Below are positions 2 to 24,620 of a DNA stretch of 24,749 nt, one piece after another. The DNA lies in the IMG/VR virus record IMGVR_UViG_3300036715_001970, positions 1 to 24,749 of that record. One strand, 5' to 3'. The translations under genes were made by a program, and so were the position numbers. The notes below the pieces were generated by a model. That model made no database searches and was not told the origin of the DNA. It saw only the letters and a list, made by a program, of their open reading frames with translations. The stretch comes from a virus. Within the stretch, counting starts at the first letter, position 1, and each line of letters begins with the position of its first letter.

Positions 2-163
2 ATTGACAATTATCGAACCGATGAAGTGAATGAAGTGATTCGCATAACTCGTTCACTCTCAAAGCACATCGAAGAGAATAAAAAAGGACAAGCCATAAAT
101 AGTAATGACTTGTCCGGTTCAGTAGCGAGGGCAGGACTCGAACCTGCGACCTGTGGGGTATGA
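2..163 (+). CDS. Possible 3' end of a gene reading rightward into the tRNA (partial)
   Basis: One frame is open from base 2 to a TGA at 161-163. The first ~35 codons look like ordinary charged helical protein (EVNEVIRITRSLSKHIEEN). The last ~12 codons read antisense through the tRNA and give ARAGLEPATC, a tail commonly seen when a reading frame runs across a tRNA. It converges on the leftward head operon. It may be the C-terminus of a real gene, possibly a recombinase or a late phage gene, or it may be chance. No function can be assigned from this fragment. Confidence 0.25.
   Translation: MDNYRTDEVNEVIRITRSLSKHIEENKKGQAINSNDLSGSVARAGLEPATCGV
80..115 (-). terminator. Rho-independent terminator after the tRNA and head operon
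   Basis: Bases 86-96 and 105-115 form an 11-bp stem with one mismatch around an 8-nt loop. Read leftward, the hairpin is followed by six T (plus-strand A at 80-85). It lies directly behind the minus-strand tRNA and the protease/capsid operon, so it probably ends that transcript. Confidence 0.8.
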
Positions 164-194
164 GCCGACCGAGCTACCACTGCTCCACCTCGCG
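123..194 (-). tRNA. tRNA with CAT anticodon, initiator-like (fMet), slightly degenerate
   Basis: A 72-nt cloverleaf can be drawn: acceptor CGCGAGG/CCTCGCT, D stem GAGC/GCTC, anticodon loop CTCATAC, T stem GCAGG/CCTGC with loop TTCGAGT. Position 1 (C) and position 72 (T) do not pair, a hallmark of bacterial initiator tRNA, and the T arm fits that class. The anticodon stem GTCGG/CCCAC has a C·C mismatch, so only two of the three G:C pairs typical of initiators remain. No CCA is encoded. It lies in the same direction as the phage head genes and before their terminator, which suggests it is phage-borne. An elongator Met or Ile2 tRNA is less likely. Confidence 0.75.
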
Positions 195-10779: not shown

Positions 10780-11079
10780 TTAAGTAAATTCATAGTAATC
10801 GTTATCTCCCTTAATCGTGGTGATGAATGGGAACTTGTTTTCGGGTACCCGGTTGATCATGTCGATCAGCACCGTTGACCCGGTAAATACAATCCTCTTT
10901 TCACCTCCCTTTTCGATCTGCAAAGTAAGCAATTGCGTGCCGTCCTTTTTCTTTGACGGCTCGATCTTGAAAGCGAAAACGGTGATGGGAGTGTTAAACA
11001 GCTTTTGAACAGCTATTTTTTCACCTACGAAAGCCTTGAGCTTTGGCTTGATGTCGAAGTCTTTAAAGTTGTTGATCAT
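10780..11079 (-). CDS. 99-aa beta-rich protein coupled to the DGR reverse transcriptase
   Basis: The start lies inside the end of the reverse transcriptase gene (17-base overlap, different frame), so the two are probably co-translated. The pattern of strands (VGEKIAVQKLFNTPITVFAF, TLQIEKGG, RIVFTGSTVLI) ending in PFITTIKGDNDYYEFT looks like a small OB-fold nucleic-acid-binding protein. It is not like the helical-bundle Avd accessory of the Bordetella DGR. It may help cDNA synthesis or homing, or it may be a general phage single-strand binder. The fold is inferred. Confidence 0.7.
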   Translation of the reverse strand: MINNFKDFDIKPKLKAFVGEKIAVQKLFNTPITVFAFKIEPSKKKDGTQLLTLQIEKGGEKRIVFTGSTVLIDMINRVPENKFPFITTIKGDNDYYEFT

Positions 11080-12025
11080 GGTTTAATAGTTTTTTGGTTA
11101 AATGTTTCGCATCACAGTGACCCAGCCATCCGAGATATGAAGCCTTCGACGGGTGGTTTGGATTCTTCGCCAGCTTGCGGGCAAAGTTCTTTTTGATTTC
11201 CTTCCTGATTCTGATGTGCGAGTGCCTGAACACATAGCCCACAAAGTCAATGCCTCGCACCTCTACCGGAAACACCTGGTGATTCTCTTTCACTTCCAGT
11301 TTCAACCCCTTCAGATACTCTTCGATGTCAATGAGTAGCTTGTGCAGCGTGGGTTTGTCACCCGCCAAGATCACAATGTCGTCGGCATAGCGATAATAGT
11401 ACTTTACTTTCTTTTGCTCTTTCAGCCAGTGGTCAAAATACGACAGGTAGAAGTTAGCAAGGTATTGGCTGAGGTAGTTGCCTATCGGCAAGCCGGGCGC
11501 GCTGTCAACAATCTCGTCCAGCAACCAAAGCAAATCTTTGTCTTTAAATTTCCGTCTCAACAAACCCTTCATCACGTCATGATCAATCGACGGATAGAAT
11601 TTCTTAATGTCGAGCTTCAGGCAGTACCGTGTGCCTTCAATATCTTTTAAGTCGTGGCGCAGCTTGCGCAACAGCAAGTGTATGCCACGCTTTTTAATGC
11701 AACTGTAAGTGTCTGTGGTGAACGACTCCACAAAGATTGGTTCAAGCACGTTCATGATCGCATGGTGCGTGATCCGGTCAGGAAAGTAAGGCAACCGGTA
11801 AACGGTCCTTTCCTTCGGTTCGAAGATGTTAAAAACATCATACTCAGAAGTGTGGTAAGTCTTGCTTTCCAATAGGTCCTGAAGGACCAGCAGATTACCT
11901 TCCTGGTTCTGGTTATGAATGAGAACGCCGTAGTGATTTGATTTGCCCTTTTGCGCTTTCGCGTCTGCCTCATGAAGGTTTTTCAGGCTGGTTATTTTGT
12001 GGTAGATGTTACCAATTCTTTTCAT
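11063..12025 (-). CDS. DGR reverse transcriptase
   Basis: 320 aa. Catalytic motifs are visible: CLKLDIKKFYPSID with D139 (motif A), LPIGNYLSQYLAN at 179-191 (the G-x-x-x-SQ motif of DGR-type enzymes), and YRYADDIVIL with D215/D216 (motif C). The C-terminal region GIDFVGYVF, then SHIRIRKEIK and a GWLGH segment, fits the thumb of DGR and group II-like enzymes. It copies the template repeat RNA into cDNA with errors at adenines. It lies downstream of the template repeat and three variable-protein genes on the same strand, the classical DGR order. Confidence 0.95.
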   Translation of the reverse strand: MKRIGNIYHKITSLKNLHEADAKAQKGKSNHYGVLIHNQNQEGNLLVLQDLLESKTYHTSEYDVFNIFEPKERTVYRLPYFPDRITHHAIMNVLEPIFVESFTTDTYSCIKKRGIHLLLRKLRHDLKDIEGTRYCLKLDIKKFYPSIDHDVMKGLLRRKFKDKDLLWLLDEIVDSAPGLPIGNYLSQYLANFYLSYFDHWLKEQKKVKYYYRYADDIVILAGDKPTLHKLLIDIEEYLKGLKLEVKENHQVFPVEVRGIDFVGYVFRHSHIRIRKEIKKNFARKLAKNPNHPSKASYLGWLGHCDAKHLTKKLLNHDQQL

Positions 12026-12142
12026 TGCCTTTGCTTTTCGTAAGTCGCCTTCTCCGCAGATACCAACGCCTTAGATTTCGTTTAAAGTAATCTTTTGCTA
12101 ATCCCTTGTTTCGGGAGCACGGCCTGCAATGGTGTATCTTTC
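12026..12142 (-). ncRNA. Spacer between template repeat and reverse transcriptase (part of DGR RNA)
   Basis: No gene is visible in these 117 bp. In characterised DGRs the RNA downstream of the template repeat, extending toward the reverse transcriptase gene, folds and primes cDNA synthesis. This segment is in the same position, so it is likely part of that RNA. I did not identify a specific fold. Confidence 0.45.
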
Positions 12143-12221
12143 AGCATAGGTGCGAGCTGACATTCGAATTCGAATTCCAATTATCGTAGTCGTTGTACTG
12201 AAACCCGGAGGAACCGCCCAT
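12143..12221 (-). repeat. DGR template repeat (TR), 79 bp
   Basis: It aligns without gaps to three 79-bp variable repeats. Read on the coding strand it would encode MGGSSGFQYNDYDNW and then NSNSNVSSHLC. It holds 19 adenines on that strand; all 41 differences found in the three variable repeats fall on 18 of them. AAC/AAT codons occur five times, the usual enrichment in template repeats. It is non-coding here: it lies 25 bases after the stop of the first variable protein gene and ends in a TGA. Confidence 0.97.
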
Positions 12222-12246
12222 ACCATCACACAGCCTTTTTTTTATT

Positions 12247-12636
12247 TTACAATAAGAAATAATCCTTGTACAGCTTCACGAACTGCTTCCCGATTTGCAT
12301 TGCCAGCTCCGCGGACTTGTAGCAAAGGCGCGAGCCGACAACCGAATCCGAACCCCAACCATCGCAGACGTCGCACCGAAACCCGGAGGAACCGCCCATT
12401 TCAAACCAAGGGTAGTACTTGTATTCATCGTAATTGTTCCAATCAGGTTTCCATTCTTTGCCATCATTGGCAATTCGGTTTGCTGCCCTTGCGATGATCA
12501 CAAGCTTTGCATGTGCATCCATTGCCTTTCTGTCCTGTTTAGGATAAGCACTGAAATCAGGAAGTACCTTTTTTGCGTCGAGACCCTCAACCTTGCAAGC
12601 GTCTTCAAACGTCTTTATTTGTTTGATCGTTTTCAT
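12247..12636 (-). CDS. DGR variable protein 1
   Basis: 129 aa. Residues 1-~60 are a variable helical N-terminus. KEWKPDWNNYDEYKYYPWF leads into the variable repeat, residues 80-105 (MGGSSGFR...W-S-S-VGSRLC), and a 24-residue helical tail (KSAELAMQIGKQFVKLYKDY) ends the protein. The conserved GGSSGFR and GSRLC frame fits the C-type-lectin-like variable domain of DGR targets. Its repeat differs from the template at 15 positions, all template adenines. It is the gene closest to the template. Confidence 0.92.
   Translation of the reverse strand: MKTIKQIKTFEDACKVEGLDAKKVLPDFSAYPKQDRKAMDAHAKLVIIARAANRIANDGKEWKPDWNNYDEYKYYPWFEMGGSSGFRCDVCDGWGSDSVVGSRLCYKSAELAMQIGKQFVKLYKDYFLL
12321..12399 (-). repeat. 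DGR variable repeat VR1
   Basis: 79 bp aligned to the template without gaps; 15 differences, every one at a template adenine (coding strand). The nine mutable codons read C,D,V,C,D,G,G,D,V, against Y,N,D,Y,D,N,N,N,N in the template. Confidence 0.96.
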
Positions 12637-12638
12637 AG

Positions 12639-13088
12639 TCAGATAAGCATGAACTTTTTATAAACTTCCGTAAACTGATTGCCTGCGTAGCTCGCCAGCT
12701 CAGCGGACTTGAAGCAAAGGCGCGAGCCGACATACGAAGCCGAACCCCAATGATCGCAGTCGTAGTACCGAAACCCGGAGGAACCGCCCATGTAGAAATA
12801 TGGAATAAACTTCCTCTCGTTGCCATCACTCCAATTTGGATACCATCCTTCATTGAGTGATCTGGCGAGCAGTTTCACGATGCGATAAGCAACTTCATCT
12901 GCTTCTAGGCCTTCACACATCTTGTCGAACTCTGCTTGCGTGATCGAATTGTCGGCGAGAATATCCGCGACCGTTTTAATTCGATCGGTCACTTTCTTAG
13001 GCTTCTCTTTGAATGTGAGTTTGCCAGATTGCTTATCGAAGGAATCTACTTCGTAGCCTTCAGGGATTTCAATGTTAATTGTTTTCAT
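12639..13088 (-). CDS. DGR variable protein 2
   Basis: 149 aa. It begins MKTINIEIPEGYEVDSFD, a beta-rich start followed by a charged linker and helices. The conserved NEGWYPNWSDGNERKFIPYF leads to the variable repeat (residues 100-125) and a helical tail (SAELASYAGNQFTEVYKKF). Its repeat has 12 differences from the template, all at template adenines. It ends two bases before variable protein 1 starts. The family resembles small variable proteins seen in many Bacteroidota phages. It is presumably a binding protein; its location in cell or virion is not shown by sequence, and there is no signal peptide. Confidence 0.92.
   Translation of the reverse strand: MKTINIEIPEGYEVDSFDKQSGKLTFKEKPKKVTDRIKTVADILADNSITQAEFDKMCEGLEADEVAYRIVKLLARSLNEGWYPNWSDGNERKFIPYFYMGGSSGFRYYDCDHWGSASYVGSRLCFKSAELASYAGNQFTEVYKKFMLI
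12713..12791 (-). repeat. DGR variable repeat VR2
   Basis: 79 bp, ungapped alignment to the template, 12 differences, all at template adenines. Mutable codons read Y,Y,D,C,D,H,G,A,Y. Confidence 0.96.
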
Positions 13089-13095
13089 AGGTGGT

Positions 13096-13491
13096 TTACT
13101 TTTGGATTATCATGAATTTTTTAAATACATCTACGAACTTGGTGCCTGCATCTTTAGCCAGCTCAGCGGACTTGAAGCAAAGGCGCGAGCCGACACCCGA
13201 AGTCGAATACCAAGAAGCGTAGCCGCCGTACCGAAACCCGGAGGAACCGCCCATGTAGAACCACGCAAAATACTTGTCCCATTTTCCGTTGCTCCAATCA
13301 GGCTCCCAACCTTCGTTGTAAGCCTTTGCTATCAGTGTCGCAAGCTGATAGTTTACGATGTGCGCGTCAGCGCCAAACAATTCGAGTAATTTTTTATAGA
13401 TGATTACCTCTGCATCTGTATCTCCAAGAGATACGAGAACGTCTTCAACGCTGTTGATCCGTTCTGTGAATTCTGTTTTTTCTGTGTTCAT
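13096..13491 (-). CDS. DGR variable protein 3
   Basis: 131 aa. The N-terminus (residues 1-~55) differs from the other two copies. YNEGWEPDWSNGKWDKYFAW leads to the variable repeat (residues 80-105) and a helical tail (SAELAKDAGTKFVDVFKKF). There are 14 differences from the template, all at template adenines. The start at 13491 lies six bases after a TTTTTAAACCCA leader. It is the first of the three tandem targets; no signal peptide or membrane segment is visible. Confidence 0.92.
   Translation of the reverse strand: MNTEKTEFTERINSVEDVLVSLGDTDAEVIIYKKLLELFGADAHIVNYQLATLIAKAYNEGWEPDWSNGKWDKYFAWFYMGGSSGFRYGGYASWYSTSGVGSRLCFKSAELAKDAGTKFVDVFKKFMIIQK
13176..13254 (-). repeat. DGR variable repeat VR3
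   Basis: 79 bp, ungapped, 14 differences from the template, all at template adenines. Mutable codons read Y,G,G,Y,A,S,Y,T,G. Confidence 0.96.
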
Positions 13492-18335: not shown

Positions 18336-19298
18336 TTACGCTGCCATTTTTAAGCCCTTCACTCCAAACATGCGCACCACTTCATCACCGGTGATCTTGC
18401 GGCCTTCCTGCTTCTGAAAATCTTTGATGTCGGCAATCCACTGGCTCAGCTTATCGAGGTCTTTGCACTCATGCACGATCACGTTGATGGCTCCTTTGTT
18501 GGTGATGCCTTCACTTACACAGATGTCAACCACTTCCTGCTCGCTCACTTCGCTAAGAAGCTCCACGTTACCAAAGAAGCGCCTGCGCAGCTGAGGGAAG
18601 CCTGCGCGTTGCTTTCCGGCAAGCAGGTCCAGTTTGTTCACCAGGCCAAAGCCGCAGATCACCATGGCACCTTTACCCTGCACCACATCACACACGTCTT
18701 TAATCACCGCATAAACAGCCGGGCGAACCTGCTCCAACTCATCGATCATGATCAGGATACCGCGCTGATTGTTTACCTTCTTTCCGATGGCCTGAATCTT
18801 CTGATGAATCCCTCTGAAGTTTCCAGCGATTCCCATTTCATTCAGGATAGCTTCCACCAGATCGTTGGCGCTCATGTTGCGAGTCGCCTTCACGTATATC
18901 GCGTAGCTGAATTTCTTAGCCACTCTTTCCAAGGCAAAGGTTTTGCCCTGGCCGGTAGGTCCATCGATGATGTAGCGAATGGCTTTGCGCTGAGCCTTGC
19001 GGCATATCTTCTCGATGCGCGTAAAGTTTCGCAGCGATGGCCATAGCAGCCCACCATCGAATTTTATTTCAAGAAAGTCGGCAAGCTTGTGAAAGGTATT
19101 GTCGCCGATGTTACTATCTACGTCTCTGCCTCCTGCGCTGATGGTGTATTTGCCGAGCTTTATCTGGCTGATGTAAGCCGCATTTACTTTGCTGGCTTCC
19201 GCAAGTTTATTCTGGCTGCGGTCTGGATTGTTGGGGTCGATCCATGCGTTTACTGCATCGGTCACCATCTGCTTGTGTTCACGAGTTAGCTTTTCCAT
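18336..19298 (-). CDS. MuB-like transposition ATPase
   Basis: 320 aa. An N-terminal helix-turn-helix (~28-50, SQNKLAEASKVNAAYISQIK) is followed by an AAA+ core with Walker A GPTGQGKT (113-120) and Walker B ILIMIDELEQ (D186, E187). Then come VICGFGLV and an arginine-rich LRRRFFGNVELL segment, and a helical C-terminal region. This matches Mu B: it binds target DNA, stimulates the transposase and gives target immunity. It lies downstream of the transposase with one gene (19337-19810) between them. Confidence 0.88.
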   Translation of the reverse strand: MEKLTREHKQMVTDAVNAWIDPNNPDRSQNKLAEASKVNAAYISQIKLGKYTISAGGRDVDSNIGDNTFHKLADFLEIKFDGGLLWPSLRNFTRIEKICRKAQRKAIRYIIDGPTGQGKTFALERVAKKFSYAIYVKATRNMSANDLVEAILNEMGIAGNFRGIHQKIQAIGKKVNNQRGILIMIDELEQVRPAVYAVIKDVCDVVQGKGAMVICGFGLVNKLDLLAGKQRAGFPQLRRRFFGNVELLSEVSEQEVVDICVSEGITNKGAINVIVHECKDLDKLSQWIADIKDFQKQEGRKITGDEVVRMFGVKGLKMAA

Positions 19299-19827: not shown

Positions 19828-22020
19828 TTAAAAGTTTTCGTCATCATCATCTTGCGGGCCGTCCAGTCCAAGCTCAAGGCGGTCTAGCTTCACACCTTCC
19901 GGCAGTGGCTCCGGCACTTGCGATAGGTTAAAATCATCGCCCTGAATTTTCTGGTTGAGTAGGTAAGCGTTTGCCGCCTGAAGCACCTCTTTGTCGTAGG
20001 CGTTAGCCTTGATCACCGGCGTGTAGGTACCGCTCTTCTTGGTGCTTTCTACCAGCTCTTCAAAGTCGCTCTGCACCATAGCGCGCTGCATCTTCTTGCG
20101 GTCTAAATGTTGTCCAAGCTCTGCACGCTCGCCTTCGTAGTAGTCGGCAACGGCCATGTGGAATTTACGCTTAGGCAGTGCGGCCATGTGCATGCCTTTC
20201 CATTGTAAAGGGTTGCCTTGCACGTAGAGCAGCAATTCATTGGGTTGTCCGTTGGTCCAAAGTTTAGGGTTCGGTTCATAGCGTACAGTGAATTTTTCGC
20301 CAATGAATTGCTTGCGGAATGCCGGTTCTTCAATGTCATAAGTGAATGGTTTTCCGATCGTGATTTCTATGCCGTTATTGGTGAATTCATATTCCTGATG
20401 CACGAATGTGCTTACCATCTTAGGCTTGCCTTCCACCATCGTGCGCACCTGTTTGTTTTGTCCAGGCATCGCATAGAAGGCTTCAATGTCAATGGCCTTG
20501 GTGAATTCACGTTGCCTGTGCTGTGTGGATGCTACACTCTTGCGATAGAATTCAAGTGGAGACAAGTTGCCCAGGAATGGGCGCGGCATATTGTTGGCTA
20601 TCGTAAAGTCTTCAATCAGTTGGTCCATTGCATTTTCGGCAAGAGGAAGCTTACCGTTTTTCACAGCCAGCGCCAGAGCTTCGCGGTTAGGCTGGTTATC
20701 AAGTGTCTTAGCAAAAGGGTTGGCAGTAAATCCGACATTGAACTTTTGCACGTGATTGTTGAACCACGCAAAGTATCCTTCCACTACTTTGCTTCGGGCA
20801 TTTCCGGCAGTCGCAGGGAAAGCAACAATGCTCATGGCATGAATAGCGTGCTGTGAGCGGTAACTTTGTATCGCGCTGCTGTTGTCGTATTGCACCTGAT
20901 GCGGCAGCTTGCCGCTCACCAGGGCTGCACTGCGTAGCGCTCCGATCACGGCCTCCGTGTTCTCTGTTTCGCTCAGCCAAAATCCAAGCACGCAATGGCT
21001 CGCCGCATCCAGCACGATAAAGATGTTCCAGCGGAAGTACTTGCCTTTGTCGAGGTGCTGAAAGTAGTTGTGTATCGGTGTGCCGTCGATTACCCACAGT
21101 GCATTTGCAAAGCTCGCGTTGATCCGCTCAGTCACCGGCTCAAATACATTGCGGTATTGCTGATATCCGTGGCGCGACTCATACCATAGCGGCTTAATGC
21201 CTGGCTTGAATAGAAAAGCCCGAATGGCATTCACAGTGATAAGTGCCTTTTTATCCCAGTGACCAAACTTTATCATTTCGTTGGCCTTGCGGGTGTAGAA
21301 ATCGAATGTCTGCTCTACCGTCAGCTTGGTCTCGCCATCCGGGTTGGCATAGAGTTGCACCAATAGCGCCTGCTGATCGTTGTCTATCTTCAGCGCGTTG
21401 TCATTGTTCACCCGCTTGCTCACCAGGCTTTCCCAGGCTTGCTGCGCAGTAATGTTTCCTTTAGCCGCCTGTTGAAAGGGCTTTAATTTCTTGTTAAGAC
21501 CTGCCAGCCCGGTGCATTTCCAGCTTGGCCACTGCCGTGCCTCAGCTAATTTTTTAAGCTCACCAATGGCGTCAGTGTAGTAGGCTGGCTTATCGGTAAA
21601 TCCAAGGGCACGTACCTCAGTCGGTTTTATGGTAGCAAGCTTTTGGAGGATATGCGCCTGCTCTGCCTTTGCTTTCGCATGGTGCGCGCGCGTAGCACCT
21701 TTGGTTTGTTTGATGTCCTTGTGTTGTAGGAAGAAATTGTAAGAAGCCTCACTGAAACCAGATTGACGAGCGATTTCACTTGAAAGACATTCTTTTTTAA
21801 GCGAGTCTATTGATGGCATTCCCTTCTCTTGACGGGTCGCTTCAGGAATACTCTCGTAGGCGATTAACACTTTCCGTCCATCTGAAGGATCAGAGATATT
21901 TGCGTAGGATGCTTGTGCTCCTTCTCGGTAATGGTTTAATTCTTTCTTTAAGAAATTAGCAGAGAACCATTTTGTTAGTTCTTTGAATGACAAATACAAT
22001 ATGTTGTCAATGATTACCAT
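19828..22020 (-). CDS. DDE transposase, MuA-like
   Basis: 730 aa. The N-terminal region (~1-270) has helical DNA-binding segments. The RNase H-like core shows D312 in LWVIDGTPI, D379 in HQVQYDNSSA and E414 in SKVVEGYFAWFN; the last two are 35 residues apart, as in the rve/Mu family. A beta-barrel-like domain (~540-620) and a helical tail with an acidic end (GPQDDDDENF) follow. It cuts and joins the phage ends to target DNA for integration and replicative transposition. It overlaps the Zn-binding protein gene by seven bases and is followed by the 157-aa gene and MuB. Confidence 0.92.
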   Translation of the reverse strand: MVIIDNILYLSFKELTKWFSANFLKKELNHYREGAQASYANISDPSDGRKVLIAYESIPEATRQEKGMPSIDSLKKECLSSEIARQSGFSEASYNFFLQHKDIKQTKGATRAHHAKAKAEQAHILQKLATIKPTEVRALGFTDKPAYYTDAIGELKKLAEARQWPSWKCTGLAGLNKKLKPFQQAAKGNITAQQAWESLVSKRVNNDNALKIDNDQQALLVQLYANPDGETKLTVEQTFDFYTRKANEMIKFGHWDKKALITVNAIRAFLFKPGIKPLWYESRHGYQQYRNVFEPVTERINASFANALWVIDGTPIHNYFQHLDKGKYFRWNIFIVLDAASHCVLGFWLSETENTEAVIGALRSAALVSGKLPHQVQYDNSSAIQSYRSQHAIHAMSIVAFPATAGNARSKVVEGYFAWFNNHVQKFNVGFTANPFAKTLDNQPNREALALAVKNGKLPLAENAMDQLIEDFTIANNMPRPFLGNLSPLEFYRKSVASTQHRQREFTKAIDIEAFYAMPGQNKQVRTMVEGKPKMVSTFVHQEYEFTNNGIEITIGKPFTYDIEEPAFRKQFIGEKFTVRYEPNPKLWTNGQPNELLLYVQGNPLQWKGMHMAALPKRKFHMAVADYYEGERAELGQHLDRKKMQRAMVQSDFEELVESTKKSGTYTPVIKANAYDKEVLQAANAYLLNQKIQGDDFNLSQVPEPLPEGVKLDRLELGLDGPQDDDDENF

Positions 22021-22588: not shown

Positions 22589-23392
22589 TTGAATAAAGCG
22601 CAGATTGATAGGATTAAGCAGGCTAGGGAGCAAACTGGCTTGAATCAGCAGGAAGCTGCAAAGCTTTCCGGGTTGATTCAGAAGGATATTAGCCTATTGG
22701 AGGCCGGTAAAAAGAAGTTTATACCGACTGAGTATATACAATTTTTGTATAAGAAGGGTGTGGACTTAAATTGGTTGCTAGCAGGCGTTAAGACACCAGA
22801 CGCTTCATCAATTATGGTGTCGGAGCCTCAAGTGCCTTATTTAATCAGCGGTGATTCAAAGAACCAAACGCAAATACCAATAACCGACATCAAGGCCGCT
22901 GCTGGTAGCGGATACATCAATAGTGAGACATTAAGATCAAGTGATTTCGTTAACCTTCCATCCAACCTTGTAAAGAGCGGGCACTACTTGTGCATCAGAA
23001 TAAAGGGCCATAGCATGAGTCCTACACTTCAAGATGGTGGTTTCATGATTATTCGTTTGCTCGAAAAGGCAGAGTGGCGAAATCTTACTTCAGATCGTGT
23101 CTATGTTGTGTGCGATGCAGAAGGTCACACCTATTTGAAACGGCTGCGCAACAGGTTTGCCAGTGGCTTCATCGTTCTCACTAGCGATAATCCTGATAAG
23201 TCCAATTTCCCCAATTTCAATTTGAGTGAATCAGAGATCGTGAGCATCTGGTATGCCGATTGGTATCTGAGTGCCAAGATGCCAAACGTACATGATCAAT
23301 TTTATAGCAAGGTCGAGCGCCTTGAAAACTCAGTCGAAGATTTATCGCGAAAATTTGACGAACTTATTGAACCTAAACTCAAGAAGCCATGA
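22589..23392 (+). CDS. Phage repressor, S24 (LexA/CI-like) autopeptidase
   Basis: 267 aa from a TTG start; an in-frame stop at 22556 and the HTH position leave no better start. The HTH is at ~16-40 (TGLNQQEAAKLSGLIQKDIS). An AAAG cleavage site (A105-G106) precedes the peptidase, with S142 in GHSMSP and K184 in HTYLKRL. A C-terminal coiled coil (~235-262, ERLENSVEDLSRKFDEL) is an addition. It should bind the adjacent operators, keep the early operon off, and be self-cleaved after DNA damage. Confidence 0.88.
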   Translation: MNKAQIDRIKQAREQTGLNQQEAAKLSGLIQKDISLLEAGKKKFIPTEYIQFLYKKGVDLNWLLAGVKTPDASSIMVSEPQVPYLISGDSKNQTQIPITDIKAAAGSGYINSETLRSSDFVNLPSNLVKSGHYLCIRIKGHSMSPTLQDGGFMIIRLLEKAEWRNLTSDRVYVVCDAEGHTYLKRLRNRFASGFIVLTSDNPDKSNFPNFNLSESEIVSIWYADWYLSAKMPNVHDQFYSKVERLENSVEDLSRKFDELIEPKLKKP

Positions 23393-24029: not shown

Positions 24030-24045
24030 GTACCCCCTAGACTGT
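24030..24045. other. Prophage-host junction (approximate)
   Basis: Reading leftward, the amidohydrolase frame remains protein-like up to about GVNQLSKEQ (24041-24067). It then changes to phage-end sequence around GTACCCCCTAGA. The exact end base and any 5-bp target duplication cannot be fixed without the other end. Confidence 0.55.
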
Positions 24046-24620
24046 TCCTTTGACAGTTGATTGACGCCGGCGATCTGCATCGCTTTCGCATTGGCAAACC
24101 CGGCATGACCACTCGCGTGCGTAAGAAAAACGGGATTGTTGGGTGACACCGCACTTAACAACTCGTGCGTCTGAAATCCCTTCACCACCTTATCCGGTTT
24201 TGAATCCCATTTGTCCTGATGCCAGCCGCGCCCGATGATCCACTCGCCCGGCTGAACTTTCGCTACCGCCTCTTTTACTTTCTCCACCATCTCGGCATAG
24301 CTTTTTATATTTTCAAGATTCAGCGTAAGCTCACTAAATCCAAGACCGATCAAATGGCCGTGCCCTTCGATGAATCCGGGCGTCATGGTTTTTCCTTTCA
24401 AATCGATCCGTAGCGTTTTGCTTCCCGCAAAATTTTCGGCTTCCGCCAATGAACCGGCAAAAAGAATTTTCTCGCCTTTCACTGCCACCGCCTCCACCTT
24501 GTCGTTGGCCTCGTCGCCGGTGTAGATCGTTCCACCCGAGATCACTAAATCCGCTTCAGGGTTTTTAGGGCCACAGCCGATGACAAGAAGGGCGAGCAGG
24601 CATACAAGGAGATGTTTCAT
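24040..24620 (-). pseudogene. Host amidohydrolase lipoprotein (YtcJ-like), interrupted by the prophage
   Basis: The start at 24620 gives a lipoprotein signal (MKHLLVCLLALLVIGCGP). Then ADLVISGGTIYTGDE and the metal-binding TPGFIEGHGHLIGLG are typical of the YtcJ-like amidohydrolase family, followed by GEWIIGRGWHQDKWD and LTHASGHAGFANAKAM. Family members are ~550 aa; here only ~193 host codons remain before phage sequence, so the enzyme lacks most of its barrel. The 3' part should lie beyond the other prophage end. Confidence 0.85.

Follow-up and report, generated by a model that had tools for sequence, protein, structure and literature searches.

How a diversity-generating retroelement (DGR) might operate without Avd is a question raised by many phage DGRs, since Avd is essential in the lone deeply studied DGR, and those without it have been called incomplete or have been given an 'Avd' by size and charge only (PMC12386605, PMC4372165, PMC6199706). 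In the literature consulted, the known DGR accessories are Avd, HRDC and MSL (PMC10053308). The same question is posed by the DGR of a viral DNA of 24,749 nucleotides (positions 1 to 24,749 of the IMG/VR record IMGVR_UViG_3300036715_001970, hereafter the window), which combines a reverse transcriptase (RT) and one template repeat (TR) with three target genes carrying variable repeats (VRs). The answer proposed here, to which a probability of about 0.8 is assigned, is a non-Avd DGR, in which the RT, an OB-fold protein encoded downstream of it and a structured spacer RNA act together in copying the TR and diversifying the three targets.

All components of the cassette are encoded on the minus strand, in the order of three head-to-tail target genes (with gaps of 2 and 7 bp), TR, spacer, RT gene and a gene for a protein of 99 aa. 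The TR of 79 bp (12143..12221), found by repeat alignment and by self-comparison of the whole window, aligns without gaps to VR1 (12321..12399), VR2 (12713..12791) and VR3 (13176..13254) with 15, 12 and 14 differences, respectively. Adenines make up 19 of the 79 TR bases and account for all 41 differences, with no non-A difference across 237 VR positions; the probability of such confinement by chance (hypergeometric) is 7e-13 for VR1, 1e-9 for VR2 and 9e-12 for VR3. The self-comparison, made independently, returned the TR with the three VRs as the only A-biased pairs. These coordinates and counts, given in the initial annotation, were exact on realignment, and its description of a complete DGR is borne out by the presence of an RT with an intact catalytic motif, an A-confined TR/VR pair and VRs lying in frame within three open target genes. 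Its boundaries (11063-13491) leave out the gene at 10780-11079, and the structure of the TR-RT spacer likewise went unremarked.

A part of these differences is not attributable to mutagenesis. At TR positions 64, 71 and 75 the A is exchanged for G, G and T in all three VRs, the TR 3' end reading GTCAGCTCKCACCTATGC and its counterpart GTCGGCTCKCGCCTTTGC in every VR of the window and close relatives. In the relative L004 the last TR adenine of this trio is a C, and its VRs keep T. Because this A-A-A versus G-G-T difference is fixed in the window and close relatives and the T is retained in L004, the three positions are best regarded as putative marks of the initiation of mutagenic homing (IMH/IMH*) type. 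The IMH*-like TR 3' end (12143..12161, GTCAGCTCGCACCTATGCT) is fixed in close relatives, the IMH-like 3' end of VR1 (12321..12339) recurs identically at 12713-12731 in VR2 and 13176-13194 in VR3, and by analogy with BPP-1 the two may differ in function. Furthermore, TR position 23 (A to G, changing CAG to CGG) is the same in all three VRs and nearly fixed. With nine of the 41 differences at fixed marks and three more at this near-fixed codon, 12 are not independent mutagenesis events, which leaves 29 candidate mutagenesis products at 15 adenines in the three repeats. The three targets fed by one template had been presented as a three-way replicate of the mutagenesis, which is correct as to the layout but overstates the size of the replicate. 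Across relatives, 43 of 1,998 TR/VR mismatches fall off A.

The three targets are small, soluble-looking paralogues of the phrog_11581 family, a family without assigned function, with 129 aa in target gene 1 (12247..12636), 149 aa in target gene 2 (12639..13088) and 131 aa in target gene 3 (13096..13491), and their VR forms an internal loop that lies some 25 residues from the C-terminus. In the AlphaFold2 model of target 2, with a predicted local distance difference test (pLDDT) score of 89, the VR is the least certain part. Searches of the PDB with Foldseek and VIA gave no match to this model, C-type lectins included, with the variable loop poorly modelled, and BFVD matches were uncharacterised phage proteins only. 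A relative of the target proteins also lies beside the repressor genes of the cultured Bacteroides phage BT-TP2 (L085, 44868-45161), in a match that omits the variable part. The targets probably present a variable binding surface for some ligand. It is conceivable, at somewhat less than even odds, that they are tail or other virion adhesins, with the DGR altering host range in the manner of BPP-1; attachment is the role ascribed to the majority of phage DGR targets (PMC8144416), and targets with a variable surface fit it. However, the small size of these proteins, the lack of a C-type-lectin match and their function-less family speak for something else, as does their position. They close an early-gene operon, at a distance from tail genes and with the adjoining terminase-portal genes on the other strand, although location alone is insufficient to dismiss adhesins. 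This position is seen in the near-complete relative G001, where the cassette lies between early and head genes, far from the tail genes.

The presence of several targets, taken in the initial annotation for an uncommon layout, is normal for this lineage. In a sample of 80 viral loci with related RTs, upstream sequence was sufficient in 58 (window included), and several targets per template were observed in 49 of them, with one VR in nine loci, two in 38, three in ten and four in one. Two VRs per TR are usual also in loci collected with the OB protein as seed, whereas BPP-1-type loci have one VR in 45 of 45 testable cases. Published surveys list several VRs in 28.6% of DGRs, of which four fifths have a single TR (PMC6642488), and two target genes in about 13% of DGRs with a maximum of eight (PMC10743442).

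The RT (320 aa, 11063..12025) is intact, carries the YADD and GNYLSQ motifs and matches PF00078 (9e-20) and phrog_1423 (8e-118). The gene behind it (10780..11079, phrog_19665) starts 17 nt inside the RT gene, overlapping its stop codon, and encodes an OB-fold-like protein of 99 aa and 11.4 kDa with an isoelectric point (pI) of 9.4. Its family profile has no match among Pfam, NCBIfam and PDB sequences. AlphaFold2 predicts an OB barrel (pLDDT 89.5, topology b1-b2-b3-a-b4-b5), and VIA ranks mostly OB folds highest in the PDB, namely the RuvBL2 OB domain (Z 6.8), SSB (6.1) and PriB (5.3), with RPA, Teb1 and PRD1 P12 among further matches. Such Z values, up to 6.8, indicate likeness of fold and are not proof of function. 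The protein probably binds nucleic acid, its pI being compatible with putative binding of single-stranded DNA (ssDNA) or RNA. The OB gene (pN/pS 0.13-0.25) and the RT gene (0.15-0.23) are under purifying selection of similar degree.

The OB gene is tightly linked to DGRs far beyond the window. An OB homologue lies at the RT in 76 of 81 RT-seeded window-type loci. When bacterial and viral contigs were scanned with the OB protein alone, 121 loci were retrieved, with a DGR RT directly upstream in 118 of 120 testable loci, the frames overlapping or touching (mostly 0-19 nt overlap), and an A-biased TR/VR pair in all 113 testable ones. Homologues are also present in the archaeal viruses ANMV-1 and vir525, and a 133-aa variant of the OB protein had no match in annotated phages. 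An ordinary DGR whose RT needs no protein partner, next to an unrelated OB gene, for example one for a replication ssDNA-binding protein adjacent by chance, would accord with the frequency of OB folds among phage replication proteins and with the five window-type loci in which no OB gene was detected. This alternative is improbable, since the OB-seeded search leads to DGR RTs in unrelated phages and bacterial genomes, the archaeal viruses carry the OB gene with different targets, and the OB domain has become joined to the RT at least three times. Moreover, the cassette is 58-82% identical between phages with transposase, terminase and portal 20-30% identical, and hence travels as a module. The close RTs of L065, L066, L067 and L075, without a detectable OB gene, go together with a different conserved motif behind the VR, PSALY where GSRL is found elsewhere.

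Distribution of the OB and Avd genes was compared by applying profiles for both to RT-seeded locus samples. The BPP-1-type loci yielded 60 Avd and no OB, while no Avd was found beside 76 OB in window-type loci (0 of 81 also by iterated profile), 74 OB in cr55_1 (crAss)-type loci and 23 OB in BT-TP2-type loci, and across the four samples no locus with both was found. An OB profile built from the window-set genes alone already recovers nearly all OB loci of these samples. Similarly, bAvd (PF22296) was not found in the window and 16 relatives, the BPP-1 control being positive; PF05635 was dropped as a proxy for Avd, as it matched no control. The window DGR is thus not of the Avd type (BPP-1 class). 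On the midpoint-rooted RT tree, Avd underwent a single change, a gain or a loss.

In 25 open reading frames (ORFs), including those of Hankyphage p00 and BT-TP2, the OB domain forms the C-terminal part of the RT, and at least three changes between separate and fused OB are required on the RT tree by parsimony. In Hankyphage p00 (L402) the RT with its C-terminal OB domain spans 38740-40047, the domain covering residues 330-423 of the open frame (E 4e-16 with the window-set-only profile). Small ORFs beside this RT match neither the Avd nor the OB profile, and the DUF4376-like gene behind the RT of Hankyphage and BT-TP2 was ruled out as the OB protein, because the OB domain resides inside the RT. 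The Hankyphage DGR diversifies its own VR in culture (PMC12135933), and thus a DGR of the OB type works.

The third component is the spacer of 117 nt between TR and RT (12026..12142). Covariation in 35 loci points to a conserved structure with hairpin 1 (12119-12116 paired with 12099-12096) and stem 2 (12072-12066 paired with 12048-12042, with inner pairs 12060-12059 and 12054-12053), in which invariant GUA/GAA face each other on opposite strands. Compensatory changes occur in ten of the 12 pairs, 93.8% of cells pair, and the covariation of 0.584 is to be compared with 0.211 +- 0.019 in shuffled alignments (0/500) and at most 0.109 in slid controls. Among OB-type loci, the covariance model (R1) matches all 24 bacterial and all 28 crAss-seeded ones tested, in nearly every case directly ahead of the RT. 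In 60 Avd-type loci it has no match below E 0.1, and three matches there have E 0.17. This RNA has no Rfam family, and an Rfam scan of the window returned a tRNA only. Two loci have two copies of the spacer RNA (L323, 1209-1312 and 3895-3998; L342, 1796-1893 and 3895-3998), which suggests a second template unit upstream. TR and RT are about 290-410 nt further apart in L004, L009 and L011 than in other relatives, due to an insert without Rfam match.

Activity of such cassettes in relatives is well supported by sequence comparison. Over 5,995 bp, L033 and L034 are distinguished by 13 positions, all of which correspond to TR adenines in a single VR; all six differences between L009 and L010 are at TR adenines; and in L032, L033, L034 and L037 each of the three VRs changes independently. 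The initial annotation had taken the adenine signature as that of an active DGR, which VR turnover supports for the relatives and not for the copy in the window, the VRs being identical in L002, the sole near-identical contig (100% identity over 10,106 bp). That the adenine differences are old and the system is a dead relic would explain this identity and is the least probable of the alternatives, as the identity of L002 says little, given that this contig could stem from the same sample or one nearby, while purifying selection acts on intact RT and OB genes, conservation extends to TR, IMH and spacer, and the VRs have no difference off A.

In the proposed OB-dependent mechanism, a TR transcript with the structured 3' spacer would be copied by the RT together with the OB-fold protein encoded downstream, adenines being misread in the process. 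The mutated cDNA could then replace the 79-bp VR in any one of the three tandem targets, where IMH at the VR 3' end would designate the recipient and IMH* would protect the template. Most likely, the OB protein would bind the spacer RNA, the single-stranded cDNA or both and tether them to the RT, which is the task of Avd in BPP-1. Several points weigh against this scheme. Besides the unchanged VRs of L002 and the five window-type RTs without a detectable OB gene, VIA Z values remain below 8 and Foldseek E values are at least 0.015, so that the fold is judged from predicted topology and the nature of the matches, and the biochemical role suggested for the protein is read from sequence. The spacer RNA was not found at threshold in ANMV-1, vir525 and most of the RT-fused clade, all with an OB domain, nor in five of the six BT-TP2-sample loci searched, and the window spacer alone folds no more stably than shuffles (z 0.45), its structure being read from covariation.

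A wider reading, held nearly as firmly, is that at least two DGR ribonucleoprotein architectures exist, namely the Avd type and a widespread, overlooked OB type, in which a separate or fused OB domain, with the spacer RNA if separate, replaces Avd. The OB type would extend over Mu-like and crAss-like phages, archaeal viruses and Bacteroidota genomes, with the window as a clean example. No OB-fold DGR accessory was found in the literature, which was consulted in part, and an earlier mention of the gene is possible; within this incomplete access, the OB accessory appears to be a previously unrecognised and unannotated DGR partner. If true, a dedicated OB-fold partner with its matching RNA would explain how Avd-less DGRs work, provide a second system for dissecting adenine mutagenesis and cDNA transfer, and allow complete DGRs to be recognised in metagenomes. 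Since Hankyphage can be grown in Bacteroides, its RT-OB fusion opens the role of OB to direct testing, and the supply of three small non-tail-like genes from one template points to targeted diversification of uncharacterised phage functions.

As had been proposed, the prophage is Mu-like; the window covers a fragment of it, with genes for a MuA-like transposase (19828..22020, minus strand, phrog_310 1e-39) and a MuB-like transposition ATPase (18336..19298, minus strand, phrog_296 6e-25), an S24-type repressor (22589..23392, plus strand), and TerL, portal and capsid genes. A tRNA-Met gene (anticodon CAT, 122-194, minus strand) lies at the left edge of the window beside the head genes. The right prophage end interrupts a host amidohydrolase gene (PF07969, about 24030-24620, minus strand), and the left end lies outside the contig.

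When compared with known systems, the BPP-1 DGR (brt, avd, TR, mtd) has in common with the window an RT, adenine-specific TR/VR differences, an IMH/IMH* pair and a TR-RT spacer. However, BPP-1 encodes Avd upstream of the TR and has one C-type-lectin tail target, whereas the window lacks Avd, encodes an OB-fold protein behind the RT, has another conserved RNA as its spacer and carries three small targets whose VR lies internally. Several VRs with one TR are also known from the multi-target DGRs of Treponema denticola and others (PMC6642488), which differ in organisms and target proteins. The archaeal virus ANMV-1 (PMC4372165) carries a homologous gene directly behind the RT (AJP62065.1) and differs in its AdtA target; a figure of that study labels one of the ANMV-1 ORFs as Avd. 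Hankyphage p00 (BK010646), a Mu-like Bacteroides phage, shares the Mu-like genome plan and the same OB domain, but its OB domain is part of the RT protein, and its TR, of 116 bp and adjacent to the tail genes, serves one very large tail-fibre target; in the window the OB gene is separate, and the targets are small and close the early region.

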